DNA from: an uncultured Spirochaeta sp.
Lineage (GTDB): Bacteria > Spirochaetota > Spirochaetia > DSM-27196 > Alkalispirochaetaceae
Assembly: GCA_913030605.1 (NCBI GenBank)
Contig: CAJWEZ010000003.1
Location: 52,138-116,137 of the forward strand
Reading direction: 5' to 3'
DNA length: 64,000 nucleotides
This document shows, piece after piece, positions 28,498-57,631 of this stretch. The notes under the pieces were generated by a model, which did no database searches, was not told where the DNA came from, and saw only the letters and a list, made by a program, of their open reading frames with translations. Both the position numbers and the translations under genes were made by a program. Positions within the stretch are counted from its first letter, which is position 1, and the number at the start of each line of letters is the position of its first letter.

Positions 28498-29684
28498 CGG
28501 CCTTTCCTGCGAGCGGAAATGTCTTCGAGCGTCTCGCTCACGTTCCGCTTGAATAGGTCCTTGAACGCCTCGATTGAGTGATTCGCTCGGACCCATTCCA
28601 TGCACGTCCGTCGACGAACATGAAATTCCTCGTCGGACAGATTCTGGGCGACATCAACAGCCTTCTCGACACTCGTTTCATTCAGAGATTCAATGCAAAT
28701 CGATACGTTTGGAACATTGATTCCAGAATACTGACTCACTATTGGTATCAACCCAGTCGCCATCAAGTTGACCACCGAACTTGGCTGACCCTCAGCACAT
28801 GAAGGATGAATTACGAATTTGCTGGAGCTTACTATTTCAATAAACTTATTCGATTTTATATCTACAAATCCATGGTAGTATATATTATCATTTTTAGATA
28901 CTATTTTTTCATAATAATCCCAAAAACTTTTTTCCTGGGCCACGGGACCACAAATATGCAATATAGCGTCCGTTCGAGAGGAAAACACGTCAATTAATAG
29001 GTCAAGACCTTTGTGAAGTGCTCCCGCGCTACCGAACCATACGAAACCAGAATCGTTAGCTCCTCCGCCGGACTCGTCAGAAAGAGAAATCGATTTCACT
29101 TCACGAATCGCAGGATGGCATGATACGTTTTGCAGCCTTATTCTGTCGGAAACAAAGTTTTCATAGCTTTCGCGAGTCACATCGTTACCAAGCAAAATCA
29201 TTCCGTCTGGAATCGAAGTTTGAAGCGGCCAGCAGAACTGAACTAGACGGCACGAATCTATCATCCAAATATTTGTTTTTGAGAATGCCTCGAGCAACCG
29301 GCCGATCGAGGCCGTATTCTGCCGTTCCGGTGCCATTCCGGTGCCATAGAACACCACGGCTTGATTAGCCCGCTTTGACGCTAGTGCCTGCTCCAACGCA
29401 GCACCGAATCCAATGATTAGATCATAATGCCTAAACGTTCCGGGATGTATGTGCTGAAAATGTATGACGTCTACGATATAGCCCAGTTCGTCAAGCACTT
29501 CGCAAATGGCCAACACTTCGTTGTAGTTCGTGTGTGCAGTGTAGGCTCGCCTCCGTCGCAACGGCCTTGCAATATATGACAAGAGAGCGCGTCGTTCGTG
29601 GCTACCCTTGAGCGGGTTCTTGGCCATTCGGTCTACATAGTTGCGTACCATTCGTTTGAGGAACACTGTGTTACGTCCTCTCAA
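28491..29684 (-). CDS. Glycosyltransferase
   Basis: FVWFGSAGALHKGLDLLIDVFSSRTDAILHICGPV...FVIHPSCAEGQPSSVVNLMATGLIPIVS. Confidence 0.8.
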   Translation of the reverse strand: MRGRNTVFLKRMVRNYVDRMAKNPLKGSHERRALLSYIARPLRRRRAYTAHTNYNEVLAICEVLDELGYIVDVIHFQHIHPGTFRHYDLIIGFGAALEQALASKRANQAVVFYGTGMAPERQNTASIGRLLEAFSKTNIWMIDSCRLVQFCWPLQTSIPDGMILLGNDVTRESYENFVSDRIRLQNVSCHPAIREVKSISLSDESGGGANDSGFVWFGSAGALHKGLDLLIDVFSSRTDAILHICGPVAQEKSFWDYYEKIVSKNDNIYYHGFVDIKSNKFIEIVSSSKFVIHPSCAEGQPSSVVNLMATGLIPIVSQYSGINVPNVSICIESLNETSVEKAVDVAQNLSDEEFHVRRRTCMEWVRANHSIEAFKDLFKRNVSETLEDISARRKGRW

Positions 29685-29757
29685 TTCGATCCATCAGCAA
29701 TCGCCTAAAACACCAAGCCGGCAGGCATCGAGACCACATTCTATGCGCAACGTATTA

Positions 29758-30693
29758 TCATTTACGGTAGGCGCCGAAAACGCCAACAATCGTAACCCAC
29801 ATTCTTCGAGCCATAGTCTTGAGCACCGAGAAATAGACCCTTCGACGAAAAATTCGCATGTCGTACTCCGAGTCAGGAACTGTGTACGGCACCGACATTT
29901 CCCAACTGGAACCGGACGCGATATCCAAGGACTCGCGGTGATGGTCGGATCGTTTTCGCCCCGGTGTGTGAACACCCTGCTCCCCAATATTGGTGACCAT
30001 GTTGAAAGAAGGAGCGACGGCGAGACGAGAATTTTTCCAACAATGAAAGACCCATTGAATGTCCCAAGTGTCCATCCGATCTTTTTTGATGCGATCGAAT
30101 TTTTGCTTCATGTGCATCGCGATCACCAAATTTGGCGATTGATATCTTATATCGCGAAATCTCAGTTTGTCATAGCTCTTCATATTCACGTCATATCCGT
30201 CCCACGCCCTTTTCCAAGTGGCCCATCCCCAAACGGGGTAGTGCTTAGAAAAGAAAGCTTGTGTCAACGTTCGCTGTGATTTGACAGGATATAGATTGGT
30301 TCCAACGATCATTCCTACGCGTTCATCAAACCTGAATCGGTCCAACATTTCATCTGCATAGTCGAAAAAACTCTGTTTTGGAACACAATCGTCTTCCAAA
30401 ATGACACCTGCATCTTCATGTTCAAACAGCCAGTCAATGGCGCTGCTAACCGCGTTCCTACATCCAAGATTGGCATCCAAGAAACGCGTCTTGACATCGC
30501 ACGGCCAATCTATTCGACCGATAACATGGTTTCTGATCACTTCGACGGTTTGTTTTTCTCCAGACACACCAGGCCTCGGCCCGTCAGACGCGATGTAGAG
30601 TTTGCTCGGTTGCGCTTTCCGAATCGCCTCGAAGACTTGCATGGTTTCCCTGTATCGGTTGAACACCAGTAACAACAACGGGTGCTTGGTCAT
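29758..30693 (-). CDS. Glycosyltransferase (GT-A-like, nucleotide-diphospho-sugar transferase)
   Basis: LLLVFNRYRETMQVFEAIRKAQPSKLYIASDGPR...VILEDDCVPKQSFFDYADEML...WGWATWKRAWDGYD. Confidence 0.8.
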   Translation of the reverse strand: MTKHPLLLLVFNRYRETMQVFEAIRKAQPSKLYIASDGPRPGVSGEKQTVEVIRNHVIGRIDWPCDVKTRFLDANLGCRNAVSSAIDWLFEHEDAGVILEDDCVPKQSFFDYADEMLDRFRFDERVGMIVGTNLYPVKSQRTLTQAFFSKHYPVWGWATWKRAWDGYDVNMKSYDKLRFRDIRYQSPNLVIAMHMKQKFDRIKKDRMDTWDIQWVFHCWKNSRLAVAPSFNMVTNIGEQGVHTPGRKRSDHHRESLDIASGSSWEMSVPYTVPDSEYDMRIFRRRVYFSVLKTMARRMWVTIVGVFGAYRK

Positions 30694-31706
30694 CTGGTAG
30701 GTTCTCCTACGGATGCCCGGTCACTACGGTGAGGTCTTCTGATGATCCGCGACGCCAGAATCCGGACAATACGAACAAAAATTTTAGCTATATGAAACCG
30801 TGAACACCCCATATTTCGGTACAATCTCCATAGTCGAAAATTATAGTAGTCGGATGATCGAAGAAATCTCAGTTTGTGAATGAACAACTCACTAATGAAG
30901 GCGCAGATCAGGCTCTTCTGATGCACTGAAGAGAAGTAAAGTCGAGCGAGATCGTATCGAAAGAAAAGGTAAGCGATGTCACTACTTACCGTTATCGATG
31001 AATCATGACTCCAGAACACTACAAGCGGCTTCGTCGTGACTGCGATGTGCGAATACTCGTTCGCTGTCTTGAGAAAGAGTAATAGGTCCGGACCAATCCC
31101 GTGTGCCCGAGAATCATCACTCAAAGAGTTTGGAATGTATGGTTCAAGGTTGCAGATGGCGTCGCTCTTGCGGAAAAGGGCACAAGCAGGAGAAACCGGC
31201 ATATTGGAGTTTGCCCGCAAAAGTGAATCCTGAATATAGGCTGAAGACGGAAACAGACCACCTTTCGCGGGTGTATATAGAATCGTCTTTTCGCCTGTGG
31301 CCGCAGACTGCAGTATGGCGGGACAATAGGCAAATCCAGCATTCTCATGGTGTGACAAAAGAGGAACTAGTTCTGTCAGAAACCCAGGCAAAAGAAAGTC
31401 ATCCGACCACAGAAATACGATGTACTCGCCCCGGCTCAACTCAAGACAACGGAGCCAGTTTCTTGTCGGGCCAAGGTTCGAGCTGTTCTCAAAGAGCCTA
31501 ACCCTCGGGTCCTTTTCGGCAAAACTTCTGACCACATCTCTCGTTCGGTCGCTGCTCGCGTTATCGCATACGACAACCTCGATATTCCTGTAGGTCTGCG
31601 CAACCGCTGACCCGACACACCGGCCTATCAGCTCTTCCCTGTTGAATACCGGAATGAGGATGCTTACAAGAGGTCGCTCAGTTGAGTCGTATCGTCTTTC
31701 TGTCAA
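30690..31706 (-). CDS. Glycosyltransferase family 2
   Basis: LVSILIPVFNREELIGRCVGSAVAQTYRNIEVVVCDNASSDRT...YIVFLWSDD. Confidence 0.9.
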   Translation of the reverse strand: MTERRYDSTERPLVSILIPVFNREELIGRCVGSAVAQTYRNIEVVVCDNASSDRTRDVVRSFAEKDPRVRLFENSSNLGPTRNWLRCLELSRGEYIVFLWSDDFLLPGFLTELVPLLSHHENAGFAYCPAILQSAATGEKTILYTPAKGGLFPSSAYIQDSLLRANSNMPVSPACALFRKSDAICNLEPYIPNSLSDDSRAHGIGPDLLLFLKTANEYSHIAVTTKPLVVFWSHDSSITVSSDIAYLFFRYDLARLYFSSVHQKSLICAFISELFIHKLRFLRSSDYYNFRLWRLYRNMGCSRFHIAKIFVRIVRILASRIIRRPHRSDRASVGEPTR

Positions 31707-32458
31707 TTTGGGCTTCTCCGTTTTCGGAAAATGGACAGACTCTTTATCGCCTGATAAGAAAATGAAGCAACGAGTCTTGTTTTCAACGAAAAACTCAAGG
31801 GGCGAATGATGATATCAAGGTACAGATACTCGACCCATGTACGGAAGTTCGGCCTGGATGACATACCCCTATTGTTCATGAACGTAACCGGAGTGTTGAC
31901 TATGAGGTGAGACGCTGGCAAGGAGTACATTTCGTTGAAAATGCAGTCAGAAATGACCTTAAAGTACGTTTTGTATCCGCCATGGCTCAACAAAAAAGAC
32001 CGCTGGATCAGGGTTCCTTGATGATAGAAATCGATCGATCGGCGTTCCTTGCTATACGAAACATGTCTTGTAACACAACTCGTAGGATGTGCGCCGAATT
32101 TGATCGCAAAATAGATAGTTTTTATATCTGAATCTAAATATGGAAGTATGTGTTCCCCAATACTTGGAGCAATCAGTATGTCTCCCGCATTCAGGAACAA
32201 CACCCATTTCCCTTTCGCAATTCTGATCCCTTTGTTCATGGCGTCATATACGCCACGATCTGGTTCCGAGATCCATCGGAAGTTGCGATCATCAAATCGT
32301 TCCAGAAATTCTATTGTGCCATCACAAGACGCACCGTCCACGATCACATGCTCTATTGCGTGTCGTACCGTCTGATTCCTAATACTTCGAATTGTCAGGC
32401 GCAGATCGGCGAGCTGGTTTTTTACTACTGTGACAATGGAGAGCTGGACGGGCCTCAA
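31703..32458 (-). CDS. Glycosyltransferase family 2
   Basis: LSIVTVVKNQLADLRLTIRSIRNQTVRHAIEHVIVDGASCDGTIEFLERF...YDAMNKGIRIAKGKWVLFLNAGD. Confidence 0.9.
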   Translation of the reverse strand: MRPVQLSIVTVVKNQLADLRLTIRSIRNQTVRHAIEHVIVDGASCDGTIEFLERFDDRNFRWISEPDRGVYDAMNKGIRIAKGKWVLFLNAGDILIAPSIGEHILPYLDSDIKTIYFAIKFGAHPTSCVTRHVSYSKERRSIDFYHQGTLIQRSFLLSHGGYKTYFKVISDCIFNEMYSLPASHLIVNTPVTFMNNRGMSSRPNFRTWVEYLYLDIIIRPLSFSLKTRLVASFSYQAIKSLSIFRKRRSPN

Positions 32459-32518
32459 GATGAGTTCCTATTGGGGAAGAGATTGGAAATATTGTGTGAG
32501 GACACGACATAGCACAAT

Positions 32519-33928
32519 CTAACTCGCTGTCGACGCATGCGAGTTTGCTAAGTCCGATAGTGCATCTCGTGTCATCCAAACAGCCGAAGGTAATAGGGAA
32601 ACACAAGTTGCAATGGCAACGCCGGCTACGCCCAGGTCGAAAAACCGGACGAACAAAATTGAAAGGGGAATATTCAGTATTGCGCCAACCGTCGCGGTAA
32701 CCAACTGTACACGAAGCCTCGAAATACCATTAACGTACGTCGCGAAAATGTTGTTCCAGATCATGATTCCGAACATCAAAACCATCGAAAAAGCAAGGGA
32801 CAGCGGACTTTCCACACTCTCGGTAAGCCACAAATCGAGAAACCTATACCTCAACACCGATATGGCCAATAGTCCGCCGACGGCGGCAAAAAAAAGCCTA
32901 ACGAGGTTCGATAGCCGCTGTTTGATCCAAAGCCAATCCCCTTTTGTGTGTGCCGCGGTAAACGCAGACCACAACGGAGCCAATAGCATACCAAACAGCA
33001 AGTGTACGGTGCTAAATAGTTTGTGATTTACTGCGTAGACCGTTACCGATCTAGGACCCAGAAGATGACTCACAATCAGATTGTCGGTCGTGAAAATCAC
33101 AATCGTGGCTAGTTGGATTACAAAAAACTGGCCGCCCAACGAAAAAAGCCGCTGCGCGGTCTGGTGATCGTAGTACCTGATTCGAGGACGAAGTTCTGAT
33201 CCTGTTGCCAGGAACCACAAAGTGGCGAAAAACAGTACTGACAACGAAGCTATCGCATATGCCCCGGTTATGAGAGGAAGCGCAACCTCTGTCTTCGAAA
33301 CAGACCAATAAAACAGAACCCCCGCAAAAACCCCCTGTGTAACCAGCTGGATCACTGCAGGCACAGCAGCCATCTGTCTTCCATAGGCGATTGCGTTGAC
33401 AACCGAAAGCGGAAGGAGAGAGCACAAAAAAGCCCAGAACAACAAGGCAGATAGCCGGACTTCGATACTTGGCAACTCTTTCGCGCCGATGACCCTATTC
33501 CAATCGGCGGAACGATCAAACAGAAGAATGAGCAGAAATGCGAACAGCATTAGCGCAACTAGTATGACGTAGGCTGTTGAGATGGCTCTGGATGCACGAT
33601 GCCGATCGCGGTTCTGAAAGGCTTGTGCCAGCTCGTTGCGAACGCCGTGCACAACCCCCACGTCCATCATCGACACCCACGATAACATTGAAAGGAGTAC
33701 CGACCAAATGCCGTATCGATAGTCGCCCAAAATCGCAAGACTCAGCCTGACAACAACAAATGACAGCAGGAAAGAAAGGAGACGAAGCGCCAGATTAAGG
33801 GAACCATGAACACGAACTACTTTAGTGAGGTCCGGCGTGTTCTCGTGTGTTACGGTTGTTCTGGCCGTCAAGCGACACACCTTTCCCTGTGCGGATCTAT
33901 TGTCACCACATACCAAAATGGCCGACAA
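32519..33928 (-). CDS. Polysaccharide flippase (Wzx/MATE-like oligosaccharide translocase)
   Basis: Multi-pass membrane protein; NLALRLLSFLLSFVVVRLSLAILGDYRYGIWSVLLSMLSWVSMMDVGVVHGVRNELAQAF; start uncertain. Confidence 0.82.
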   Translation of the reverse strand: MSAILVCGDNRSAQGKVCRLTARTTVTHENTPDLTKVVRVHGSLNLALRLLSFLLSFVVVRLSLAILGDYRYGIWSVLLSMLSWVSMMDVGVVHGVRNELAQAFQNRDRHRASRAISTAYVILVALMLFAFLLILLFDRSADWNRVIGAKELPSIEVRLSALLFWAFLCSLLPLSVVNAIAYGRQMAAVPAVIQLVTQGVFAGVLFYWSVSKTEVALPLITGAYAIASLSVLFFATLWFLATGSELRPRIRYYDHQTAQRLFSLGGQFFVIQLATIVIFTTDNLIVSHLLGPRSVTVYAVNHKLFSTVHLLFGMLLAPLWSAFTAAHTKGDWLWIKQRLSNLVRLFFAAVGGLLAISVLRYRFLDLWLTESVESPLSLAFSMVLMFGIMIWNNIFATYVNGISRLRVQLVTATVGAILNIPLSILFVRFFDLGVAGVAIATCVSLLPSAVWMTRDALSDLANSHASTAS

Positions 33929-34322
33929 GATTGGGCCAAAAAAATGGTTCTACCGAAAATCAAAAACGCAATAGTGATCGCTACGGATGTCCTTCGCTTT
34001 CGGGGGACAAAACCAGAATCCTTGCGTCGCAGAACGAACCGATCCTTCCCAGTATAGATTCGGCGCGACTTTTTGTTCGGTGTGATAGTACTCACGTCAC
34101 AATCAGCCTTGATGAGCAAAAAAGCATCGCTGATGAGCGGCGGAAAGGTAGGACGGTATTTCTCCATGGAGAGTGTTTACGAACCAAACCGAACGCTCCG
34201 GAGATCCACCATGCATGCTATCCACAAATGTATCGACCTTCTGCGAAACTGCGGAAGCCATACGGTTCGCGGTCTGAGGATTCCGCAAAACCTGAGCCAA
34301 ACGATCCAGATTGTTCTTTGTC

Positions 34323-35214
34323 CGATACACGAGAGGTGGCACAGATGCAGTCGGTGCGGGTGTACAAGCTGCGACGATCATGATCTCACAACAAGCATTG
34401 TTCGAAACCCACCGGCAATCCAGTCACGCAGTCGAACTCCGTGTTGTCGTGTGCCGGGTGGTCTGTCCCGTATTTGGACCAAGCCATGAATGGATTCCTT
34501 TGCTGGACCAATGTACCCGAGTTACGACGCGCGTGGCCGAAAAGGGCTGCCAAATTGCAGAGATCATGACTATCAAGGATGTCACGGAGACGATTTTGCT
34601 TGCCCAGCAGACGGTCAAGACTATCTGCAAACGATAACCGAAACGCCTCCTTGAGTCAATCAATCTGAACAGTATTATTAGTGCTGTTGATCGATGAGCG
34701 TGCCATCCATAATGGATATCGTCCGTTATTGCCGCGAGGCAATTGATTACGTCCGCGTCGACGCCGTCAATCGCTATAGTTGTGATCCGATACGGCGACA
34801 ACTCATTAACGGATTGCGCTGGCGACTCCTTTGGAATCACGAAAAGCTCAGCCGCTCAGACAAGCACCGTCGGGTGGACGAACTCGTTGAGGTCAACAAG
34901 AGACTATCGTTGGCGTATATCAAGAAGAAGCACCTGAACCACCTCTGGACGTTTACTGATCAGGTCGCTGCACGTTTTCGGCGGCATCACTGGTTCCACT
35001 AGGCGATCGACACAACTACATCGATGCACTCCATTACGTTCGGGGAGTATCTATCCGTTCCTGGAAAGGGCTTGTGCTGGCGCACACAAAATACCAGTTG
35101 ACCTCCGGCATGCTCGAAAGTATGAACAACATGATCAAGGTCATAAGGCGCGTCGCACACGATTTTCGGTATGATCATTACGTTTTCTTCGTATCCGTCA
35201 CGAATTCCCTATAA
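34323..35214 (+). pseudogene. Decayed transposase (ISL3-family-like), multiple frameshifts
   Basis: Fragments in different frames: RCSRCG zinc-finger-like; RVVCPVFGPSHEWIPLLDQCTRVTTRVAEKGCQIAEIMTIKDVTE; LINGLRWRLLWNHEKLS...AYIKKKHLNHLW; LTSGMLESMNNMIKVIRRVAHDFRYDHYVFFV. Confidence 0.65.
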
Positions 35215-35341
35215 TTCCGCGCCAAATTGACTGTTTTGGCTTATGCGGTCGAAGTGATTATTTGCCAACCCGATGTGCAGATTTCGTGCAGAAGTCGAAG
35301 TCTTTTCGAACCTCCTTCGATTTTGTGAGTTTTTTGAGCTA

Positions 35342-36369
35342 TTACACGCTTCGATACGTCGACAGCCAGCCCATGAGAGTTTTGACACCAACTTCCGGTT
35401 TCACACGTGGCACCCAAGACACGGCACCTTCAATCATGTCGTTCGAAGCAACAAACACCTTCTGGTCGCGTCGCCGCGCTTCAAGGTGTTCCGGCACTAG
35501 ATCCACGTGAAGCTCGGCGGACAATTGGTCCAACAATTCTTGAATAGAGAACGCGTTTTGTACTCCGCCGCCAACATTGTACACACCGCCGGCGACGGTA
35601 TCGATCCGCTCGGCCGCAGAAAAATAGAGCCTGACGACGTCTTCTGCATGAAGTAGATCGCGCACCTGCTTACCGTTTCCGGCCACGGTAAACCGATGAT
35701 TGGGGTCCTCTTTGGTGCGAAGGGCCTGCATCGTGAACCAACCGACCCAACCCTGGTCAAACGTCGGATACTGACCACCTCCATACATCGACGAGTGCCT
35801 GAAGACAACAGTCTTGAGGCCGTACATTCGGTGATAGTCGCGAACATACTGGTCGGCAGCACCTTTGGAACAACCGTAAGGCGTGCTGAAATCGAGCGGA
35901 AGTGTCTCAGGGAGTCCTTTGGGATAGTCGACGCATTCATAACGAGTCTCCAACTCGTTGTAGCGGAGATCCTCCAGATCGCCGTACACTTTGTTCGTGG
36001 ACGAATAGAGGATTGCAGCCTCTGGACAGTGTTTTCTCACTGCCTCAAGAACCGAAACCGTTCCCATTGCGTTGATTTCGAAGTCCTTGAACGGCTGTTC
36101 CACAGACGTTGTCATGGCAACCTGGCCGGCCAGGTGAAAAACGACATCTGGTTTGACCAGTTCCACCGCGCGGTCGATGTCATGTCGGCTACGAACATCC
36201 CCATGGAAGAACTCGAATTCTCCTTGTCCCCTGAGCCAAGCGAGGTTCTGGGTGGATCCCGCCCGGCTCAGATTGTCAAACACGTAGAGTTGTTCCCCGC
36301 GACGGAGTACTTCCGCCGAAAGATTCGACCCAACAAAACCGCATCCACCAGTCACCAGATACTTCAACT
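35342..36369 (-). CDS. NAD-dependent epimerase, CDP-paratose/tyvelose 2-epimerase-like (RfbE-like)
   Basis: LKYLVTGGCGFVGSNLSAEVLRRGEQLYVFDNLSRAGSTQNLAWLRGQG...STNKVYGD...TPYGCSKGAADQYVRDYHRMYGLKTVVFRHSSMYG; likely TTG start after AAAGGAA. Confidence 0.8.
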
Positions 36370-37269
36370 GCCATTCCTTTCGCCGTACGTCTTGAACACA
36401 AGCTCTCGCAGGCCCGTCTCCAGAGTGATCTCTGGTTCCCATCCGAGTCTTTCTGTTGTTGCCGAAACGTTGATGTCAGGCTCCATCAACTCACCAGCCC
36501 TGTACGGCACAGCCCCGAAACGGAGCTCAGGAAGGCCAGTACTACCGGTCACATCCGCCGCCAATCGCCGGAGTGTCTGCACAACCTCGCGGATAGTCGA
36601 GAGGCGGCCGGTGCCAACATCGAACTCAGAAAACCCAGACGACATCGGGCATTCAAGAACCGCGACATAGAGACTCGCTACATCGTTGACGTGGATGAAG
36701 TCACGTTTCTGTTCGCCGCTGGTAAGGGAGATTTCCTTGGCTCCACCAAATAGTTGATCAAGCACCCAGGGCAGAAATTTCTTGTTGTCATCGCCCGGCC
36801 CGTACATCTGCTCGAGTCGCAGGTTCACCGTTTTTTGGGGCCCGGTCTCGAACCGAAGCCATTCAACGAACTGCTTTTTCGATAACGCGTATCTATTGAG
36901 GGTCCGAGGCAGTGACGTATCGGTATTGACGAACTGTGGCACCCCCGCGTCCCGCGCCGATTCGAATAGCTGGAGACCAAATGACACGTTCGTCTCCAGC
37001 ATATCCAGGGCTGTCTCGCCCTGCCGCCCGTAGCTACAGGCAGTATGGACAACAGCATCCGTAGACACTCCTGAGAATGCCTCAGCCACAGACGTCTTGT
37101 CGATATCAATGATTCGAACACGTCCAATTTCTCGCTCAATCCGAGATGTGTCCGAGTTGCTCCTCTTGAGAATGGTCACTGCGTACTCTCGCGCAAGTAG
37201 CGTCTTGAGGAGATGACTCCCAAGAAATCCCGTCGCACCTGAGAGAACTATGTGCTTAGGTCTGTCCAT
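36364..37269 (-). CDS. NAD-dependent epimerase/dehydratase, CDP-abequose/CDP-paratose synthase-like (RfbJ/RfbS-like)
   Basis: KHIVLSGATGFLGSHLLKTLLAREYAVTILKRSNSDTSRI...RYALSKKQFVEWLRF; context within CDP-dideoxyhexose cluster. Confidence 0.7.
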   Translation of the reverse strand: MDRPKHIVLSGATGFLGSHLLKTLLAREYAVTILKRSNSDTSRIEREIGRVRIIDIDKTSVAEAFSGVSTDAVVHTACSYGRQGETALDMLETNVSFGLQLFESARDAGVPQFVNTDTSLPRTLNRYALSKKQFVEWLRFETGPQKTVNLRLEQMYGPGDDNKKFLPWVLDQLFGGAKEISLTSGEQKRDFIHVNDVASLYVAVLECPMSSGFSEFDVGTGRLSTIREVVQTLRRLAADVTGSTGLPELRFGAVPYRAGELMEPDINVSATTERLGWEPEITLETGLRELVFKTYGERNGS

Positions 37270-38335
37270 ATTCCCGAATTGCTGCGGCGATTGGCTCCCG
37301 CGACGGTGCACCAACGAGACTCCGATAGCCCTCTACGGTAACCTGACTGGCTCGAGAGACACTCCATTTGGGTATCCAATTAAGGTTTGCTTTCGCTTTC
37401 GAAATATCAAGCTTGAGGAAACGGGCCTCGTGAGGCCCCGAAGGATTACCTCGATGGACTTTCAGTCCAGCGCAGGACACTTCGAATATCGCGGCGAGAT
37501 CACCCACAGAAATACAGTCCTCGTCCCTCGGACCAAAATTCCACTCCTCGCCATACTCCGGTGAATCATAGAGTCGTTCTGCTACGACCAGGTATCCGGA
37601 CAACGGTTCCAGCACGTGTTGCCAGGGCCGGATCGCGTGTGGATTGCGTATCGTCGCCGGTTGGTTGGTCGTCCAAGCGCGGATGAGATCGGGAACAATT
37701 CGATCGGTCGCCCAGTCACCACCGCCGATCACATTTCCCGCCCTTGCGGACGCCACCGAAACGTGGTGCGAGTTCCCATACTGCTCCGCATTGAAGAACG
37801 AGCTGCGATAGGCAGCTACAACCAGCTCGGCAGCGGCCTTGCTATTGGAGTACGGATCGTATCCGCCGAGCCTGTCGTTCTCGCGATAACCCCAATGCCA
37901 TTCACGATTCTCGTAGACCTTGTCGGTGGTCACCACGACCACACTCCGAACGCTTTCCGCATGACGTACGGCTTCGAGAAGATTGACCGTACCCATAACG
38001 TTGGTTTCGTAGGTGAGGCGAGGTTGTTTGTAGGAATCCCGAACGAGCGGCTGCGCCGCCAGATGAAACACGACTTCGGGCTGGAACTCTATCAACGACG
38101 TCAACAGTGTGTCGTAGTCACGAATGTCCCCGATGACTGAGTCCATTCCGGCAGCCACGTCAGCCTGGACGAACAGGCTTGGGTCGGTCGGTGGATTCAA
38201 CGCGTATCCACGGACAACGGCTCCCATTTCCTGGAGCCAAACCGACAGCCAACCCCCTTTGAAACCGGTATGTCCGGTGAGAAAAACTCGACGCCCTTTC
38301 CAGAACGAGGGATCGGGATTCACCACGTTTTCCAT
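37256..38335 (-). CDS. rfbG: CDP-glucose 4,6-dehydratase
   Basis: FWKGRRVFLTGHTGFKGGWLSVWLQEMGAVVRGYALNPPTDPSLF...VTTDKVYENREWHWGYRENDRLGGYDPYSNSKAAAELV; start at ATG 38335. Confidence 0.93.
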   Translation of the reverse strand: MENVVNPDPSFWKGRRVFLTGHTGFKGGWLSVWLQEMGAVVRGYALNPPTDPSLFVQADVAAGMDSVIGDIRDYDTLLTSLIEFQPEVVFHLAAQPLVRDSYKQPRLTYETNVMGTVNLLEAVRHAESVRSVVVVTTDKVYENREWHWGYRENDRLGGYDPYSNSKAAAELVVAAYRSSFFNAEQYGNSHHVSVASARAGNVIGGGDWATDRIVPDLIRAWTTNQPATIRNPHAIRPWQHVLEPLSGYLVVAERLYDSPEYGEEWNFGPRDEDCISVGDLAAIFEVSCAGLKVHRGNPSGPHEARFLKLDISKAKANLNWIPKWSVSRASQVTVEGYRSLVGAPSREPIAAAIREYGQT

Positions 38336-39090
38336 GGCGCATCTCCCGTCTCCCAACGATTCTCGAGTTCCAGTTTGTCTCGGAGGGTATCCATCGGCTT
38401 CCAGTATCCGGTGTGTTTGTATGCGGAAAACTGACCATCCTTGGCCAGGCGTTCCAGGGGATCGCGTTCCCAAACCGTAGTGTCGCCATCTATGTATTCG
38501 AGGACATCGGGTTCGAGTACGAAGAATCCGCCGTTGATCCACGATCCGTCGCCTTTCGGCTTCTCCTGGAACCCCGAAATGTCGCCGTCCGTTTCGATGT
38601 TGAGTGCTCCGAATCGGCCGGACGGTTGAACCGCCGTGACTGTGGCGAGTTTGCCGTGGCTCCGATGGTGAGACAGGAGTTCGGCAATATCTACGCTTCC
38701 AACTCCGTCACCGTATGTCAGCATAAACGTTTCGCCATCGATGTACTCGGCAACTCGCTTGACGCGCCCGCCGGTCATCGTATTGTCCCCGGTGTCCACC
38801 AGGGTCACACGCCAGGGCTCAGCGTTTTTGTTATGGACGTCCATGGTATTGTGCTCCATATCGAACGTCACATCAGCCATGTGCAGGAAGTAGTTGGCGA
38901 AGTACTCCTTGATTACGTAGCCTTTGTACCCGAGACATATCACGAAATCGTTGAACCCGAAGTGGGAATAGATCTTCATGATATGCCACAGAATTGGCTT
39001 CCCACCGATTTCGACCATCGGTTTCGGCTTCAGGACAGTTTCCTCACTTAACCTGGTGCCAAACCCTCCCGCAAGAATCACCACTTTCAT
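38320..39090 (-). CDS. rfbF: Glucose-1-phosphate cytidylyltransferase
   Basis: MKVVILAGGFGTRLSEETVLKPKPMVEIGGKPILWHIMKIYSHFGFNDFVICLGYKGYVIKEYF; start at ATG 39090. Confidence 0.95.
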   Translation of the reverse strand: MKVVILAGGFGTRLSEETVLKPKPMVEIGGKPILWHIMKIYSHFGFNDFVICLGYKGYVIKEYFANYFLHMADVTFDMEHNTMDVHNKNAEPWRVTLVDTGDNTMTGGRVKRVAEYIDGETFMLTYGDGVGSVDIAELLSHHRSHGKLATVTAVQPSGRFGALNIETDGDISGFQEKPKGDGSWINGGFFVLEPDVLEYIDGDTTVWERDPLERLAKDGQFSAYKHTGYWKPMDTLRDKLELENRWETGDAPWKTW

Positions 39091-48867: not shown

Positions 48868-49020
48868 GGTGCCTGTAGCATGTTGTTCACCCTTCGCGGC
48901 ACACCTTTTCCAGGCGCTGCAGGCAGCGCGGCGGCCGCAGCGCCGGTTGGCGTCCGCGAAACCGGTGGTGCAGGGTGCGGTCTGCGGCGGCCCGTTCCGT
49001 TGAACGGGATGAGTAGACGG
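48868..49020. repeat. Intergenic repeat copy R2 (blocks A-B-E)
   Basis: gcctgtagcatgttgttcacccttcgcggcacacctttt...ggtggtgcagggtgcggtctgcgg...gttccgttgaacgggatgagtagac. Confidence 0.75.
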
Positions 49021-49046: not shown

Positions 49047-50450
49047 CTACGACTTCGGTTTGACTCCACCCTTCCGTCCGAGGCGGAACCCGACCCTGTA
49101 GAGGTCAGGCATGTCTATTCGCCCGTCACGACGGGTCTCAATGAGGCCCAGACGCTCCAGGTCACTTCGGACTCCGTCCCAGCCACGGTCGGCGTGTTGA
49201 GCGGGAAGAGCCTCAGGAGAGATCTGATCGGGTCCTTCGGGAAACGTTCGTCGCCAGCGATCGACGATATCGTCCCACGGCGAGGGAACATTCATCCCTT
49301 CCAACGCGGTGAGAAGGTTCACGACCCACGGGTACTCTTCGGCCAGTTCAAACACGCGATTCTCCGAGGCCTTCTGGATGCCGCGTTTGATGCTTTCGTA
49401 GTGCAACGCGACGTCGTGGTCCGGATATCGTTCCTCGGAGTCCTCGGCACCCTGACGAATGGCAGACAGAAAAGACCGCGGGGTGGTCCTGCCCCGCCCG
49501 TCGGCGAGGTGTCCCACCGCCCACGTGTACGGCACGCCTCTGCGTCTGTCCCGGCCCATCCACGGACCGGCCAGTTTCCTGAACGCGGCCCGTTGCGCAT
49601 CGCTGTCCCGTTTCATTTCATCTGCCGGCGCCCAGACGCCGTTGCGCTCGCGGGTTTCGCACAAGGCCCTGAGATTCTTTCCATGTTCCCCTGGCGCGTT
49701 TACCAATCGTTGCCACAGCAGTCCATGAAGATCGTGTCGAGCCCATGTCAGTTCCGCCTGAAGCGCGCGAAGCTTGGACGCATCCGGAAAATTAAAAACC
49801 TCGCGCTCTGCTTGATCCTCCCTGAGAAAGACCTTGGCATGCAGTTTCGGAAATGTTTTTGTCCAAAGAACCGCGCGCAGCAGACCGCGGACGATGGAGT
49901 CCATATCGTTCCAGTTGGTGCTGGTACGGTCCAACGCATCAAACACAATGAGTCCGGGTCGAGTTCGACGCGATTCCATGATTCGCGAGACCTGTTCCGG
50001 ATTCGCCTTGATCCAGGAAACCGAATCGGCCCAAGAGGCTGTCGGGATTTCTTCCTCCGTTTGACGCGCCACCCATCGAAGCACGACTGCGCGCCACAGA
50101 TCAAACGGGTCCCCTCTCCCATCGAGAAACCGCGCGAATACATCGGGACTGGGGTATGAGTGTATGTCAGACCGTGTTCCAAACCCGACGTGTACGTCGA
50201 CTCCGTCGATTTCCGGCACGGCGGTTCCGACGAATGACCGAAGGTCGGGCGACTGAAGCGCCGATGTCCAGAACGATTTTCCCACGCCCCGGGCACCGAT
50301 CACGATACTTGAATCGAGCCGCAACGCCTTGAGATGCGCGATTGGTACGTACAGTGTTCCATTGGCGGGGGTGTCGCCGGCGTTTGTCGATTCGAGCGGC
50401 GCGGAAAGAATGGCCCTGCGGACTTCCCTGGCGGACAATGATTCGCTCAT
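49047..50450 (-). CDS. P-loop ATPase (AAA/STAND-like), third gene of coupled operon
   Basis: Walker A GARGVGKS, Walker B LIVFDALDR, RTTPRSFLSAIR motif, C-terminal winged-helix-like RSDLERLGLIETRRDGRIDMPDLYRVGF. Confidence 0.75.
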   Translation of the reverse strand: MSESLSAREVRRAILSAPLESTNAGDTPANGTLYVPIAHLKALRLDSSIVIGARGVGKSFWTSALQSPDLRSFVGTAVPEIDGVDVHVGFGTRSDIHSYPSPDVFARFLDGRGDPFDLWRAVVLRWVARQTEEEIPTASWADSVSWIKANPEQVSRIMESRRTRPGLIVFDALDRTSTNWNDMDSIVRGLLRAVLWTKTFPKLHAKVFLREDQAEREVFNFPDASKLRALQAELTWARHDLHGLLWQRLVNAPGEHGKNLRALCETRERNGVWAPADEMKRDSDAQRAAFRKLAGPWMGRDRRRGVPYTWAVGHLADGRGRTTPRSFLSAIRQGAEDSEERYPDHDVALHYESIKRGIQKASENRVFELAEEYPWVVNLLTALEGMNVPSPWDDIVDRWRRTFPEGPDQISPEALPAQHADRGWDGVRSDLERLGLIETRRDGRIDMPDLYRVGFRLGRKGGVKPKS

Positions 50451-51748
50451 GGTTTCGCGTCATCCATTCCGATCGTCACTGCGACACCGTCCAACAAAGG
50501 TCCGAACACCGCCATCACTTGCTGAGCGTCGATGTCGGCGAAACGTCCTTCCAACGACCGGATCGCCGAAAACGACCGGTGCCAGCGAACGGCCCACGGG
50601 GCGTGGGGAGCTGTCTCGTCATGCTCCTCGAAGTGCCAGTAGTCCGCCGTCACGCTGCCCGGCGGCACATCGTCGTAGAGTCCTTGCGCGAACAGCTCGT
50701 AGGAACGCTCGCGAAGACCTGCGAGATAATCCGCAGTCTCGATCTCCGGCACCAGGGCTGCGACAACCTGGAGTCGGTCACGTATTTTGTTCGCGGCATC
50801 GGTTCTCTGCCAATTGGAAAAAAGCATGTTGTACCCGTTCCACGTTTGATGCCCTTCAATTGCAAACATGAGCACCAGTCGTGCACCGAGGGCGGTGACA
50901 CATCCCGACGAGATTTCGTCTATGCCCGATCGGGAATCGATGAGAACGACGTCGGGCTTCACGGTGTCTTCAAGCTGTCCCACGAGCCGCCGAAGCCGAC
51001 CATCCCACAATTGACGTCCCCCGGCAGGATCGTCCACTGACATCCACACGCGCCCGAGTTTTGAGAGGTATTCTCCGGGATCCCGGCCGTGGGCCGGTGC
51101 GACGTAGATCTCACCGTCGTGAGACAGAGGGCTGGCCGATACCATCGCTTCAAGAACGGTTGAGCCGTTACCCACGAGATCTTCCACCAGCCAATCAGTT
51201 ATGCCGTACTGCGGTTGTCGGTCTTCCGGCAGGAGTTCCGACGACAGTCCAGGAGACTCAAGATCGAGGTCGAGTACGAGAACCCTCAGTCCGGCCTGTG
51301 CCAGGTGCCAGGCGGTAATCGCGAGAGCGGTCGACCGGCCGACACCGCCCTTGATCGAGTAAAACACGATGCGGGGAGGATCGTTTGCCATGTCATGAAT
51401 GGACTGCCAGGTGGAATCGGTGGCCAGCCGGTCGACCACGATGCCGTTCGGGACGTTGTGCAACGGAAACTGGGCCGCACCGAGACAGACCGAATCGCGA
51501 TCTGACTCGTACAGGAGACTGGAAGACGTGGCATAGCCGTGTGGCCCCAGCTGATCCATGACTGCATCTGCAACGTTTTGAACTGCCAACTTGAGTTCCG
51601 GGCGATCAGCGATCGCGCTGGGCACAACGAAACGAACACGACCGGTCAAGTCACGGTTGACCAAGACCCAATCCAATTGCTGGATCGTGTCGGCGTGCGA
51701 TGAGAACACCTTTTCCACGATCGGGAGAACGTTATCGAATGTCGTCAT
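50447..51748 (-). CDS. KGGVGR-motif variant AAA ATPase (ParA/MinD-like)
   Basis: IVFYSIKGGVGRSTALAITAWHLAQAGLRVLVLDLDLESPGLSS; DVVLIDSRSGIDEIS; ATGA overlaps with both neighbours. Confidence 0.85.
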   Translation of the reverse strand: MTTFDNVLPIVEKVFSSHADTIQQLDWVLVNRDLTGRVRFVVPSAIADRPELKLAVQNVADAVMDQLGPHGYATSSSLLYESDRDSVCLGAAQFPLHNVPNGIVVDRLATDSTWQSIHDMANDPPRIVFYSIKGGVGRSTALAITAWHLAQAGLRVLVLDLDLESPGLSSELLPEDRQPQYGITDWLVEDLVGNGSTVLEAMVSASPLSHDGEIYVAPAHGRDPGEYLSKLGRVWMSVDDPAGGRQLWDGRLRRLVGQLEDTVKPDVVLIDSRSGIDEISSGCVTALGARLVLMFAIEGHQTWNGYNMLFSNWQRTDAANKIRDRLQVVAALVPEIETADYLAGLRERSYELFAQGLYDDVPPGSVTADYWHFEEHDETAPHAPWAVRWHRSFSAIRSLEGRFADIDAQQVMAVFGPLLDGVAVTIGMDDAKP

Positions 51749-52161
51749 ACCAGCCCCTCCAGTTGAGCTTGTTGTATGAGCCCGTGAACTTCACGGGCGC
51801 CGGCGCGATGAGGATTTACCCGGGCGAGGTCGAACTGGTCCTGTCGGGAATACCGTTGTGACACGTTCCAGTTGTCGAACGGTGCCGGGGTTGACAACGG
51901 GTATCGGCTACCCGCCGGACGCCCCTGTCTGTATGTCTCATACCGGTACCAGATGCGATCGATGTGTCGTTGATCTGCGACGTCCTGTGGCCGATCATTT
52001 TGGGAATCGTACCTCATCCCAAATTCGACCATAAGCTTCTTGAGACCGCACTCCGCCGATAAACCGTAGAGATGGTCTGCGTTCGCCAGCCGTCCTGCGG
52101 AATGAAGGGCCTCCGCGTCGGTCAAGTGTCGTTCGTGCGCATCAAGAAAGTCGGTGTTCAC
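51745..52161 (-). CDS. Small HEPN-like protein, first gene of coupled operon
   Basis: ERHLTDAEALHSAGRLANADHLYGLSAECGLKKLMVEFGM resembles HEPN N-terminal helices; ATGA overlap with next gene. Confidence 0.6.
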   Translation of the reverse strand: MNTDFLDAHERHLTDAEALHSAGRLANADHLYGLSAECGLKKLMVEFGMRYDSQNDRPQDVADQRHIDRIWYRYETYRQGRPAGSRYPLSTPAPFDNWNVSQRYSRQDQFDLARVNPHRAGAREVHGLIQQAQLEGLV

Positions 52162-52262: not shown

Positions 52263-52363
52263 AGAATTGTGTGCCGCTCAGGATGAGCACCTTGTCAGGG
52301 GCGCGTTTTTGTCGCCGGCAGCGACGGGCCCCGCTCCGGTGAACCGGATGGGTCGACCTTCCC
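52263..52363. repeat. Intergenic repeat copy R3 (blocks C-E)
   Basis: agaattgtgtgccgctcaggatgagcaccttgtcagggg...ccccgctccggtgaaccggatgggtcgaccttccct. Confidence 0.7.
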
Positions 52364-52424
52364 TCTGCACTCCCCGAGCCCCCCGGTCCTTGACGTGTCC
52401 CGGGCGTGGTGCGTACGCTATCCA

Positions 52425-52498
52425 CAGAACAGGGGTGCCGAAAGGCTGAGATCATACCCGTAGAACCTGAACTGGGTAATGCCAGCGGAGGGATTCGA
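52425..52498 (+). ncRNA. TPP riboswitch (THI element)
   Basis: cagaacaggggtgccgaaaggctgagatcatacccgtagaacctgaactgggtaatgccagcggaggga matches the conserved THI-box; followed by thiamine-type transport genes. Confidence 0.93.
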
Positions 52499-52567
52499 TG
52501 ATCCATTTCTTGTGCGCGTGTGACGCGGTGCAGGGCACCCCGGATTTTTCCGTGAAGGGGGTGCGCC

Positions 52568-52870
52568 ATGAACGCACGAACACGCAACGTTTCGATACAG
52601 GTCCTTCCACTCATTCCCGACGCGATTCCCGTGGTCGATAAGGCGATCCGCGTGATCCAGGACAGCGGTGTGCGCTACGAGGTGGGTCCGATGGAAACCA
52701 CTCTGGAGGGCGAAGACCTCGATGAGCTGCTCACCGTTGCCCGGCGCGCCCACGAGGCGTGCTTTGACGGCGCCGACACGGTGGTGACGGTGATCAAGAT
52801 CGCCGACTCGGTGAACGGCACGTCGATCGAGGGCAAGACGGCGAAGTACCGCGGCGGCGCGGCGGGATGA
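52568..52870 (+). CDS. Thiamine-binding protein (MTH1187/YkoF-like)
   Basis: SIQVLPLIPDAIPVVDKAIRVIQDSGVRYEVGPMETTLEGEDLDELLTVARRAHEACF. Confidence 0.88.
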   Translation: MNARTRNVSIQVLPLIPDAIPVVDKAIRVIQDSGVRYEVGPMETTLEGEDLDELLTVARRAHEACFDGADTVVTVIKIADSVNGTSIEGKTAKYRGGAAG

Positions 52871-53652
52871 ACGCCCGCACGGTGGTACCGCCGGCCGCGG
52901 TGATCGTGGGTGCGGTGGTGGCGTGGCACGTGGTGGTGATCGCCAGCGGCCTGCCACCGTTTATCCTGCCGTCGCCGGTGGGGGTGGTGCGCTCGGGGGT
53001 GGAGACGTGGAACGTCCTGGGCCCGGCGATCGTGACCACGCTCTCCGAGACGCTCCTGGGGCTCGCGATTTCGGTCACCCTGGGGGTGGCGTTTGCCGGT
53101 GCCATGGACCTGGTGCCGCTGGTGCGGCGGGCGCTCTACCCGCTCCTGGTCGCCTCGCAGACGGTGCAGATCCTGGCGATCGCGCCGCTATTGGTGATCT
53201 GGTTCGGCTTTGGCCTCACCCCAAACATCATCGTGGTGGTGCTGTTCACCTTCTTTCCCATGACGGTGGCCACCGTGGATGGGCTGACCTCGACCGACCC
53301 CGACTACATTCGCCTGCTGCGCTCGATGGGGGCCTCCCGTGCCCGGATCTGGCGCACGGTGCGCCTGCCGGCGGCGCTGCCCTCGTTCTTCAGCGGCCTG
53401 CGGTTGTCGGTGACCTACAGCGTGGTGGCGGCCACGGTGGGCGAATGGGTGGGCGGCTCCGGCGGGCTGGGGCTGTACATGCTGCGCTCCAAGAACGCGC
53501 TGGAGACGGACCAGGTCTTTGTGGCGATGGTGATCACCACCCTGTTGAGTATTGGTCTGTTTCTCTGTGTCTTCCTCTGCGAACGCCTGGCGCTGCCGTG
53601 GTACTACACCGCGCAGCGCCGCGAGCAGTGGGACGAGCAGGGAATCTACTGA
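52867..53652 (+). CDS. ABC transporter permease (thiamine-precursor type)
   Basis: EMV-like GASRARIWRTVRLPAALPSFFSGLRLSVTYSVVAATVGEWVGG. Confidence 0.92.
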   Translation: MNARTVVPPAAVIVGAVVAWHVVVIASGLPPFILPSPVGVVRSGVETWNVLGPAIVTTLSETLLGLAISVTLGVAFAGAMDLVPLVRRALYPLLVASQTVQILAIAPLLVIWFGFGLTPNIIVVVLFTFFPMTVATVDGLTSTDPDYIRLLRSMGASRARIWRTVRLPAALPSFFSGLRLSVTYSVVAATVGEWVGGSGGLGLYMLRSKNALETDQVFVAMVITTLLSIGLFLCVFLCERLALPWYYTAQRREQWDEQGIY

Positions 53653-53676
53653 CAAATCGAACCCGAGGAGGATGCG

Positions 53677-54702
53677 ATGGTCCGTATGTTTGTGTTCCGT
53701 GTGTTTGTGATGGTGTGTGCGCTTGCGGCGCCGGTGGTGTACGCCGGTGGCGCGGCTGAGTCCGACGCGGCGGGAGCCGGGGATGCCGGGGCGCCGGTGC
53801 AGCAGGTGACGTGTATGCTCGACTGGGTGCCCAACGTGAACCACGTGGGGATCTTTGTGGCGCAGGACCGCGGCTTCTTTGCCGATGAGGGCCTGGCGGT
53901 CGATATCATCCAGCCGGGGGAGGTGGCGGCCAACGCGGCGGTCGCCAGCGGTCGGGCTGATTTCGGTGTGGGCTTTCAGGAGAACCTGACGCTCCTGCGC
54001 GCGGACGATGTCCCCCTGGTGTCGATCGCGGCGATGCTGCAGACGAACACCTCGGGGTTTGCGGTCCGCGCGGGTGAGGGTGTGGAGACGCCGGCGGACT
54101 TTGCGGGACTGACCTACGGCACGTTTCAGTCGCCGTTTGAGGAGCCCACGCTGACCTCGCTGGTGGAGGCCGCCGGCGGCGACGCCTCCGGTATCGAGTA
54201 CGTGCCGGCGGGGTCGGAGTTGCTGGCGATGCTGCAGCAGGAGCGCGCGGACATCGTGTGGATCTACTACGGCACGCAGGGGTTTCAGGCCGAGCGTGTG
54301 GGGATCGATATCGACTACTTTCCACTGAACGAGTACCCCGACGCGGTTCCCGACTACTACACGCCGGTGATCATCGCGAGCGAGTCGATGCTCGCCGACA
54401 ACCCGGAGCTCACGCGGGCGTTCCTGGCGGCGCTGAGCCGCGGGCACCGCTATGTGGTGGACCACCCGCAGGAGTCGGCGCGCATTCTCGCGGAGGCGGT
54501 GCCGGAACTGAACGCGGAGCAACTGGGCAAGAGCGTTCCCTGGCTCGCGCAGCGCATGGTGATGGATGCGCCGGAGTGGGGCTACCAGGAGGTGTCGGTC
54601 TGGCGCGAGTACGCGGCGTGGATGCGCGATGTGGGCGTGCTGGAGGGCGAGTTTGACCCGTCCTCGGCGATGACCAACGCCTTTCTCCCGGGGCAGCAGT
54701 GA
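53677..54702 (+). CDS. ABC transporter substrate-binding protein (NMT1/THI5-like)
   Basis: VTCMLDWVPNVNHVGIFVAQDRGFFADEGLAVDIIQPGE. Confidence 0.93.
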   Translation: MVRMFVFRVFVMVCALAAPVVYAGGAAESDAAGAGDAGAPVQQVTCMLDWVPNVNHVGIFVAQDRGFFADEGLAVDIIQPGEVAANAAVASGRADFGVGFQENLTLLRADDVPLVSIAAMLQTNTSGFAVRAGEGVETPADFAGLTYGTFQSPFEEPTLTSLVEAAGGDASGIEYVPAGSELLAMLQQERADIVWIYYGTQGFQAERVGIDIDYFPLNEYPDAVPDYYTPVIIASESMLADNPELTRAFLAALSRGHRYVVDHPQESARILAEAVPELNAEQLGKSVPWLAQRMVMDAPEWGYQEVSVWREYAAWMRDVGVLEGEFDPSSAMTNAFLPGQQ

Positions 54703-55541
54703 CTGCCACGACGACGCGGGACCCTGAGGCGACCCCGCGCCTGGCGGTGGATCGCGTGTCGATGACGTTTCACGGTGAGGCGGGGGCTGTTGAGGCCCTC
54801 GCCGATGTCTCCTTTGACGTACACCGCGAGGAGATCGTCACGGTGATCGGGCCGAGCGGGAGCGGGAAGAGCACGCTCTTTAACGTGATCACCGGGCTGA
54901 TCGAGCCGCAGGCGGGGGCGATCCGCATCGACGGCCGGGAACTCGCCGACCGCACCGGTGCGGTGGCGTACATGCCGCAGCGCGACCTGCTCCTGCCGTG
55001 GCGGACGGTGCTGGACAACGTGGTGCTGCCGCTGGAGATCCAGGGGGCCGGCGGGACGCGGGCGCGAGCACGAGGTCGAGCGAAGGCGCCGGCGCGGGAG
55101 CGGGCGCGCGAACAGGCGCGGGAGCGAGCGCGGGAGCTCATGCCACGCTTCGGCCTCGAAGGGTTCGAGAACCACTACCCGGCGGTACTCTCCGGCGGCA
55201 TGCGCCAGCGCGCGGCGTTCCTGCGCACGGTGATGAGCGGTCGTGAGACGCTGCTTCTGGACGAACCGTTCGGCGCGCTGGACGCACTGACCCGCCGGCG
55301 GCTGCAGGACTGGCTCCTGGAACTCCAGCGCGAACTGGAGCGCACGATCCTCTTCATCACCCACGATGTGGAGGAGGCGGTGTACCTCGGCGACCGCGTG
55401 GTCGTACTGAGCCCGCGCCCGGGGCGGGTGCAGACCACGATGCCGGTGGACCTCCCGCGCCCCCGCCATCAGCAGATGATCGGGGACCCGGCCTTCGGCC
55501 GCCACGTGGCAACGCTCCTGGAGGAGCTCGGGGTCAGGTAG
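54699..55541 (+). CDS. ABC transporter ATP-binding protein (thiamine-precursor type)
   Basis: GPSGSGKSTLFNVITGLIEP...LSGGMRQRAAFLRTVMSGRETLLLDEPFGALDALTR. Confidence 0.95.
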   Translation: MTATTTRDPEATPRLAVDRVSMTFHGEAGAVEALADVSFDVHREEIVTVIGPSGSGKSTLFNVITGLIEPQAGAIRIDGRELADRTGAVAYMPQRDLLLPWRTVLDNVVLPLEIQGAGGTRARARGRAKAPARERAREQARERARELMPRFGLEGFENHYPAVLSGGMRQRAAFLRTVMSGRETLLLDEPFGALDALTRRRLQDWLLELQRELERTILFITHDVEEAVYLGDRVVVLSPRPGRVQTTMPVDLPRPRHQQMIGDPAFGRHVATLLEELGVR

Positions 55542-55883: not shown

Positions 55884-56138
55884 ATGAAGACGAAGGTGAT
55901 TCGGATCGGCAACTCCCGCGGCGTCCGAATTCCGGCGGCGGTTCTTCAGGCGTACGACATTCACGAGGGGGACGAGTTGGAACTTGATCGGCGCAGGGAG
56001 GGCATCCTGCTGTCGGTCGTCAATCGACCGTCGGTTCTCAGCTATGAGGAATCCTATCGCCAGATGGCGGCCGAGGCCGCGGAACACGCGGAGTGGTCGG
56101 CGTGGGACACGGTGGCTGGAGACGGCGTTGATGATTGA
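55884..56138 (+). CDS. AbrB/MazE-family antitoxin
   Basis: MKTKVIRIGNSRGVRIPAAVLQAYDIHEGDELELDRRREGILL. Confidence 0.92.
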   Translation: MKTKVIRIGNSRGVRIPAAVLQAYDIHEGDELELDRRREGILLSVVNRPSVLSYEESYRQMAAEAAEHAEWSAWDTVAGDGVDD

Positions 56139-56475
56139 GCGCTACGGTGTGTACTGGGTGAACCTGGATCCGGTGATTGGCCGCGAGATGGCAAAGCGGC
56201 GACCGGCGGTTGTCGTCAGCGACGACGCGATGAACCGCGTGCTGGGAACCGTTGTTGTCTGTCCCCTGACTTCATCGCGTCATCCGGCGTGGCCAAGTCG
56301 GGTCGCGTGTTCCGTCGGCGATATCGATGGCGAGATCGCGGTGGACCAGATTCGAACGGTGTCCCGTCGCCGCATCGGCGACTGTCTCGGCACGATCGAT
56401 GAGAGTGCGGCGGCGACGATCCGCCACGTGATCACCGAGATGTACGGGATCCTGGCGACGTCGGTGGAGGAGTAG
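56131..56475 (+). CDS. MazF-family endoribonuclease toxin
   Basis: RYGVYWVNLDPVIGREMAKRRPAVVVSDDAMN...VVVCPLTSS...DGEIAVDQIRTVSRRRI; overlaps antitoxin stop. Confidence 0.93.
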   Translation: MIERYGVYWVNLDPVIGREMAKRRPAVVVSDDAMNRVLGTVVVCPLTSSRHPAWPSRVACSVGDIDGEIAVDQIRTVSRRRIGDCLGTIDESAAATIRHVITEMYGILATSVEE

Positions 56476-56936: not shown

Positions 56937-57191
56937 TTACTCCGTTGGGTCCGGCCAGGCTCTGGTGATGGCCGCGGCGAAGGCGCGGAACACACTCAGT
57001 TGCTCGGTGCACAGGCGGTACACGATCGCCCAATCCATCTCTTGATACTCATGAACCGCGATGTTTCGAAACCCCACGGCACGGGACAGACCGGTTGCAA
57101 GATCCCTGGCCAGCACTCCATGCGACGACAGGATGGCGAACGTCTCCGCCATGGTGGTCGGCGCCTCCCAACTTTGCGTCGAGCAGGTCAT
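56937..57191 (-). CDS. HepT-like (DUF86) HEPN toxin, apparently N-terminally truncated
   Basis: PTTMAETFAILSSHGVLARDLATGLSRAVGFRNIAVHEYQEMDWAIVYRL: RX4HXY motif present, N-terminal ~50-60 residues absent. Confidence 0.8.
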   Translation of the reverse strand: MTCSTQSWEAPTTMAETFAILSSHGVLARDLATGLSRAVGFRNIAVHEYQEMDWAIVYRLCTEQLSVFRAFAAAITRAWPDPTE

Positions 57192-57631
57192 TGTCCGGCA
57201 ATGAGTCTCTCCCGTCCCCGCGCGCGGATCATGCGTACGTTGGGCAGCATGTCTTCCACGAAATCCAGCATTCGAATGATGAGTTCCGCCCGTACGGTTG
57301 GATCGCGCTGAAGGACAACCCGTCCGCTCGTGAGGATCTGCTTCAGGAACACGCCCCGCGCCGCAGACAGGTCACGGACCTGCACTTCTCGGCCGATCAG
57401 CCGGCCCGCCTCCAGGCTGACCGCGAGCAGTGTGTCATGCGGCACGGGCGTTCGGGCATCCACGGCGAGGGCCAGATCGATGTCGCTGTCGGCGTGGAGC
57501 GTGCCGGTAACCGCGGAGCCGTAGAGAATGCCGAGTTGCAGGTCCCGGTGGCCCTTGAGGACCTGAACGAGCTGGTCGACGATCGCGTCGAGGTCGCGGG
57601 ATGGGTCCGGGACGGAGGATCCGTGTGCCAT
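57188..57631 (-). CDS. MntA-type minimal nucleotidyltransferase antitoxin
   Basis: LQLGILYGSAVTGTLHADSDIDLALAV: GSX10DXD motif; C-terminal RAELIIRMLDFVEDMLPNVRMIRARGRE; ATGA overlap with HepT-like gene. Confidence 0.9.
   Translation of the reverse strand: MAHGSSVPDPSRDLDAIVDQLVQVLKGHRDLQLGILYGSAVTGTLHADSDIDLALAVDARTPVPHDTLLAVSLEAGRLIGREVQVRDLSAARGVFLKQILTSGRVVLQRDPTVRAELIIRMLDFVEDMLPNVRMIRARGRERLIAGQ

Follow-up and report, generated by a model that had tools for sequence, protein, structure and literature searches.

A PDC-M28-type operon of an uncultured Spirochaeta encoding a predicted HEPN-like protein and two P-loop ATPases, a candidate anti-invader module

What would a small helical protein do when it is encoded together with two P-loop ATPases, in genes that overlap at both of their junctions? 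This question is raised by a locus in the 64,000-nucleotide stretch of an uncultured Spirochaeta sp. analyzed here (contig CAJWEZ010000003.1), which we refer to as the window. We address it through the identity of the three genes, named A, B, and C in order of translation, their conserved residues and predicted folds, and the company that their relatives keep.

Operon layout and catalog identity

The genes and their junctions are as follows.

51745..52161, minus strand: gene A, 138 aa, GTG start; PDC-M28A, predicted HEPN-like helical protein
51745..51748, minus strand: stop-start overlap ATGA of A and B, read from the sequence
50447..51748, minus strand: gene B, 433 aa; PDC-M28B, ParA/MinD-type ATPase with a KGGVGR[ST] P-loop
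50447..50450, minus strand: stop-start overlap ATGA of B and C, read from the sequence
49047..50450, minus strand: gene C, 467 aa; PDC-M28C, ORC/Cdc6-STAND-like ATPase with a C-terminal winged-helix-like region

The first-pass annotation of this DNA had described three minus-strand reading frames joined by ATGA at both junctions, and these were recovered at exactly the same coordinates. It had also called their co-expression obligate, an inference from the stop-start overlaps. When scanned with PADLOC, A matched PDLC04558 (PDC-M28A; E value of 9e-55), B matched PDLC04559 (PDC-M28B; 4e-171), and C matched PDLC04561 (PDC-M28C; 5e-195), each over nearly the full length. Since homologous triplets in the same order were found elsewhere as well, we regard all three as real genes. 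In PADLOC-DB 2.0, PDC-M28 is defined by the subunits A, B, and C, all of which are present here. Because the three proteins match the profiles of one PADLOC candidate, the set is already catalogued, and its earlier portrayal as an undescribed, unnamed system had to be abandoned; the accompanying suggestion of a conflict system was right in kind.

The PDC entries originate in a survey of the "guilt-by-embedding" type, and most of them lack validation (PMC10855318; PMC12988326); the names "PDC-M28," "KGGVGR," and "Sll1717" appeared in none of the papers searched. The window operon has the same composition as the catalogued candidate, and no difference between the two was detected. What the present analysis adds to the entry is the fusion of B with C, a variant absent from the sources consulted, and an AbiV-type site in A.

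Predicted folds and conserved residues of the three proteins

The AlphaFold (AF2) model of A is all-helical (pLDDT, 93.6; pTM, 0.88). Its ten best matches in the PDB, obtained with Foldseek, are mostly HEPN proteins, including ST0689, TM0613, 4nqf, sacsin, and AF_0298; 2q00, which has been listed as HEPN-T (PMC3710099), is also among the best matches. Since the best E value was 0.13, with none below 0.1, and TM-scores ranged from 0.37 to 0.56, we assign a HEPN-like fold to A with moderate confidence. In Pfam, no family matched the window's A, whereas PF05168 HEPN and AbiV were each matched by 4 of 20 members, at best E values of 0.0016 to 0.0017; a clear sequence-profile match to AbiV/AF0298-type HEPN was thus not obtained for A, being weak in the relatives and missing for the window's own protein. 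Profiles of A and C gave chance-like matches only when compared with the sequences of solved structures.

The conserved residues of A are R11, E37-x3-K41, H66, W98, and R103-Y104. The Ex3K motif (E37-x3-K41) and R103 are found in 33 of 33 members and H66 in 30 of 33. The classical Rx4-6H RNase motif is not conserved, as a histidine occurs 5 to 7 positions after R103 in only 2 of the 33. An alternative active site has been proposed for HEPN proteins of the AbiV and AF0298 type, which keep the arginine, have lost the classical histidine, and carry a second histidine in an insert between helices 2 and 3; many HEPN families also have an Ex3[KR] motif whose acidic position falls within helix 2 (Anantharaman et al. 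2013; PMC3710099). In the model of A, E37 and K41 lie within the helix formed by residues 25 to 46, and H66 lies just ahead of the helix formed by residues 67 to 79, a placement that fits this description. By its sequence, A keeps the AbiV/AF0298-type constellation of Ex3[KR], a histidine between helices 2 and 3, and the arginine. The likeness to these families (PF18728 and PF05168) thus consists of the Ex3K motif in helix 2, the interhelical histidine, an arginine without its classical histidine, and the weak profile matches of the relatives, whereas A differs in sitting in an operon with two ATPases and in being remote in overall sequence. The earlier designation of the small protein as HEPN-like is upheld by its modeled fold and the family evidence, with the classical RNase motif absent; an RNase activity of A is a prediction.

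Protein B consists of an N-terminal domain of about 120 residues followed by a ParA/MinD-type ATPase. It scored 193.2 bits against NCBIfam NF047398, which describes KGGVGR-motif ATPases and has a cut-off of 90, confirming the assignment that had been made from the sequence. Residues K133, R138, D160, D162, E164, D271, and R273 are invariant among the aligned members, and the motifs DxDLExPG and DxRxG are kept. Of these, K133 is the signature lysine, and R138 is an arginine that occupies the place of the Walker lysine in every aligned member. The invariance of R138 argues for a working variant of B and not for decay; the arginine P-loop could mean that B lacks ATPase activity. A different KGGVGR architecture was observed in another genome (L077; G027 contig C197), where the ATPase has a repeat-rich, TPR-like C-terminal region and adjoins a nitrilase-like gene.

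Protein C carries a Walker A motif (GxRGxGKS) and a Walker B motif (FDALDR). The best PDB matches of its AF2 model (pLDDT, 88.6) are ORC1/Cdc6 and the BREX ATPase BrxC (Foldseek E values of 4.5e-6 to 1.6e-4), and its Pfam matches, to AAA_16 and NACHT, are weak. Against NF047389, the Sll1717-family P-loop ATPases, it scored 62.6 bits, below the cut-off of 75, so that C is related to this family but is not a member by the cut-off. The region from residue 392 to 454 appears winged-helix-like in the predicted secondary structure. These observations agree with the first-pass reading of C as a second P-loop ATPase with a winged-helix-like C-terminal segment. Although C shares its predicted fold with BrxC and ORC/Cdc6, its identity to them is 11 to 14%, and its size and partners differ; unlike BREX, the operon has no methylase or phosphatase gene.

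Distribution, mobility, and possible working of the module

The order A-B-C is found again, with similarly short junctions, in 28 related loci from several phyla. The gap between A and B is at most 10 nucleotides in 27 of 28 loci (overlapping in 19), and that between B and C is at most 10 nucleotides in 25 of 27 (overlapping in 21), with start codons picked by rule wherever annotation was absent. Homologues were found in one Rhodospirillales, one Peptococcaceae, and one Sulfuricurvum genome; on plasmids of alpha-, beta-, and gammaproteobacteria, Streptomyces, and Calothrix; and in IMG/VR contigs. Many of the cassettes are plasmid-borne or located in viral contigs, and some lie on chromosomal contigs. 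Wherever all three genes could be read, whether on a plasmid, in a genome, or in a viral contig, their order is the same. Two loci on Streptomyces plasmids (L025 and L026) had a homologue of C but no match to A or B. The closest relatives found belong to other phyla and are roughly 45 to 63% identical, C being the best conserved subunit (61 to 63%). Among 393 genomes of the phylum, the C profile matched in 6: the window's own at full length, one cut by a contig end, and the rest weakly; both genus-mates in this sample lacked C. No C homologue was found in isolated phage genomes, and no close copy of the three relatives searched was found in E. coli genomes.

The pairwise distance matrices of the three proteins are correlated (r of 0.87, 0.85, and 0.79; 0 of 2,000 permutations), which shows co-inheritance and not function. 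In five contigs of the viral collection (L057, L059, L060, L061, and L065), a single open reading frame spans both B and C, giving fusion proteins of 774 to 945 aa as read, one of them cut by the contig end. An A-like frame lies directly upstream of the fusion in four of the five, the fifth being cut at the contig end, and these upstream frames are recovered by a profile of A from which the fused loci had been left out, with E values of 6e-6, 1e-4, 8e-4, and 3e-3. The fusions are the best evidence for B and C acting as one unit.

The operon is a horizontally mobile unit, and in its relatives it has repeatedly been placed in defense loci and prophages. In the window, GC3 of the three genes is 0.62 to 0.67 versus mostly 0.80 to 0.88 in the flanking genes, and their leave-one-out codon scores are -0.09 to 0.08, with flanking genes mostly at 0.25 to 0.40; judged by these measures, the codon usage of the operon is foreign. 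Relatives lie within three BREX-2 loci, on plasmids of Thiodictyon, Sphaerotilus, and Streptomyces, the last with the cassette between pglW and pglX. Type I restriction subunits are encoded near the cassette in two further loci (L007 and L042), and on five plasmids tyrosine integrases adjoin it or lie within about 1 kb. In one locus (L036), the cassette occupies the early region of a lambdoid prophage, and its flanks match phage HK225 in parts; the region holds replication genes of the O-like and P-like types together with CII, NinB, and Q, and the cassette lies on the opposite strand, between the O/P-like and the NinB/Q-like genes. A phage terminase is encoded near another (L056). In the window itself, the scanned flanks held no other recognized defense system, the immediate neighbors are not defense genes, and PglZ had no match in the genome; hence, there is no defense island at this operon. 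A role as a BREX accessory only was rejected, since the genome lacks PglZ and most related loci are not in BREX.

We propose, with about an even chance of being right, that this PDC-M28 operon is a mobile anti-invader module of three subunits, in which sensing falls to C, gating to B, and the effector role to A. This is the most likely reading, and its roles are inferred from the analogy with STAND and AbiV systems. Protein C, with its winged-helix-like tail, would assemble upon recognizing either an invading nucleic acid or the state of its replication. Protein B would bind nucleotide and form one functional unit with C, a coupling indicated by the gene fusions, and would relay or gate the signal. 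The B-C unit would hold A in check and then release it, and A, through its alternative site (E37/K41, H66, and R103), would serve as a small effector or RNA-binding output leading to an abortive or growth-arrest response, the putative source of an anti-phage effect. A broader and rather doubtful generalization is that PDC-M28 forms a distinct abortive defense class, in which an ORC/STAND ATPase and a ParA-like ATPase with an arginine P-loop, fused to each other in some cases, jointly serve as sensor and gate and set free an AbiV-type HEPN effector with a nonclassical active site.

Other explanations were weighed against this proposal. The operon might be a toxin-antitoxin module selected for self-maintenance, with A as a HEPN toxin, the ParA-like B as its antitoxin, and C as an accessory. 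A pair of a MAE_18760-family HEPN and ParA/Soj was proposed as a toxin-antitoxin in 2013 (Anantharaman et al. 2013; PMC3710099), and in both cases a HEPN-like gene adjoins a ParA-like ATPase gene; the PDC-M28 operon differs by having a third gene, also for an ATPase, and an alternative rather than classical HEPN motif. The frequency of the cassettes on plasmids and in viral contigs would suit self-maintenance, as would the toxin-antitoxin modules 4 to 6 kb from the operon in the window. Nevertheless, C does not look dispensable, given that no other subunit is as well conserved among the closest relatives and that five loci have it fused to B, and embedding within BREX-2 operons fits defense better. 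Moreover, the members of A matched no HEPN family other than PF05168 and AbiV. The Pfam model tried for MAE_18760, PF18737, is that of MAE_28990 and says nothing about membership of A in the former. We consider a toxin-antitoxin module unlikely. BREX is thought to block replication of invading DNA, and an effect of this kind could be exerted by B and C themselves, with A as a noncatalytic HEPN, that is, a structural or RNA/protein-binding adaptor. The missing Rx4-6H motif of A and the resemblance of C to ORC/Cdc6 and BrxC, proteins acting on DNA, would be compatible with this, but the strong conservation of the alternative constellation (Ex3K, the upstream histidine, and the arginine) has no obvious need in a pure adaptor, and we find this explanation similarly improbable. 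Partition of a plasmid or prophage by the ParA-like B with C as its DNA-binding partner is very improbable: B is a ParA/MinD relative and several cassettes are plasmid-borne, but C is an ATPase and not a ParB-type adaptor, and cassettes are also found on chromosomal contigs, in the early region of a lambdoid prophage, and within BREX-2 operons.

For the proposed sensor-gate-effector module, the alignments point to testable residues in the HEPN-like A and to two ATPases acting as one unit, and the lambdoid prophage version (L036) lends itself to tests in a laboratory host. Study of PDC-M28 would reveal if alternative-site HEPN proteins have RNase activity, as predicted in 2013, and the reason for the family-wide change of the Walker lysine to arginine in B.

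Repeats and neighboring genes in the window

The first-pass annotation had placed the operon beside repeats and toxin-antitoxin modules. Both are real, and the modules are set apart from the operon. The features concerned are listed below.

48997..49018, plus strand: 22-bp direct repeat, just downstream of C
52336..52357, plus strand: 22-bp direct repeat, upstream of A
55884-56475: MazE/MazF toxin-antitoxin module
56937-57631: HepT-like/nucleotidyltransferase pair

Divergent from the operon, at 52420-55541, is a riboswitch-controlled thiamine-precursor transport operon, in which a TPP riboswitch is followed by genes for a thiamine-binding protein, an ABC permease, an NMT1/THI5-like binding protein, and an ABC-type ATPase. 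Because it lies in between, the toxin-antitoxin modules are neighbors at 4 to 5 kb and not parts of the A-B-C operon. The HepT-like frame covers profile positions 48 to 120 only and may be truncated or mis-started.

Five copies of the 22-bp motif are present in the 4.07-Mb genome, four of them in one orientation at 46.7 to 57.8 kb in the window; shuffles of the window contained none. The copies bracketing the operon may be a mark of how it came in. Splitting of a single repeat unit by the operon was also considered; the motif is present on both flanks. No target duplication was demonstrated, nor could an empty site be shown in the genus-mates, where the neighboring transporter has no close counterpart. 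Composite dispersed repeats with segments of 40 to 150 bp were also observed in several intergenic regions between 46600 and 57830.

The genome encodes an integron-type integrase (G000 contig C42:11404-12330; L081/L085; 381.7 bits, cut-off of 265), with few attC-like candidates nearby, possibly an integron with few or no cassettes. An origin of the operon as an integron cassette was rejected, as a simple scan found no attC-like sites around it and the repeats of the window are absent near the C42 integrase. Elsewhere in the window, a segment of about 12 kb (26650-39087) has a GC content of 0.44 to 0.57 versus a window mean of 0.61, with open reading frames mostly on the minus strand; it has the appearance of an acquired island and might be a polysaccharide cluster.
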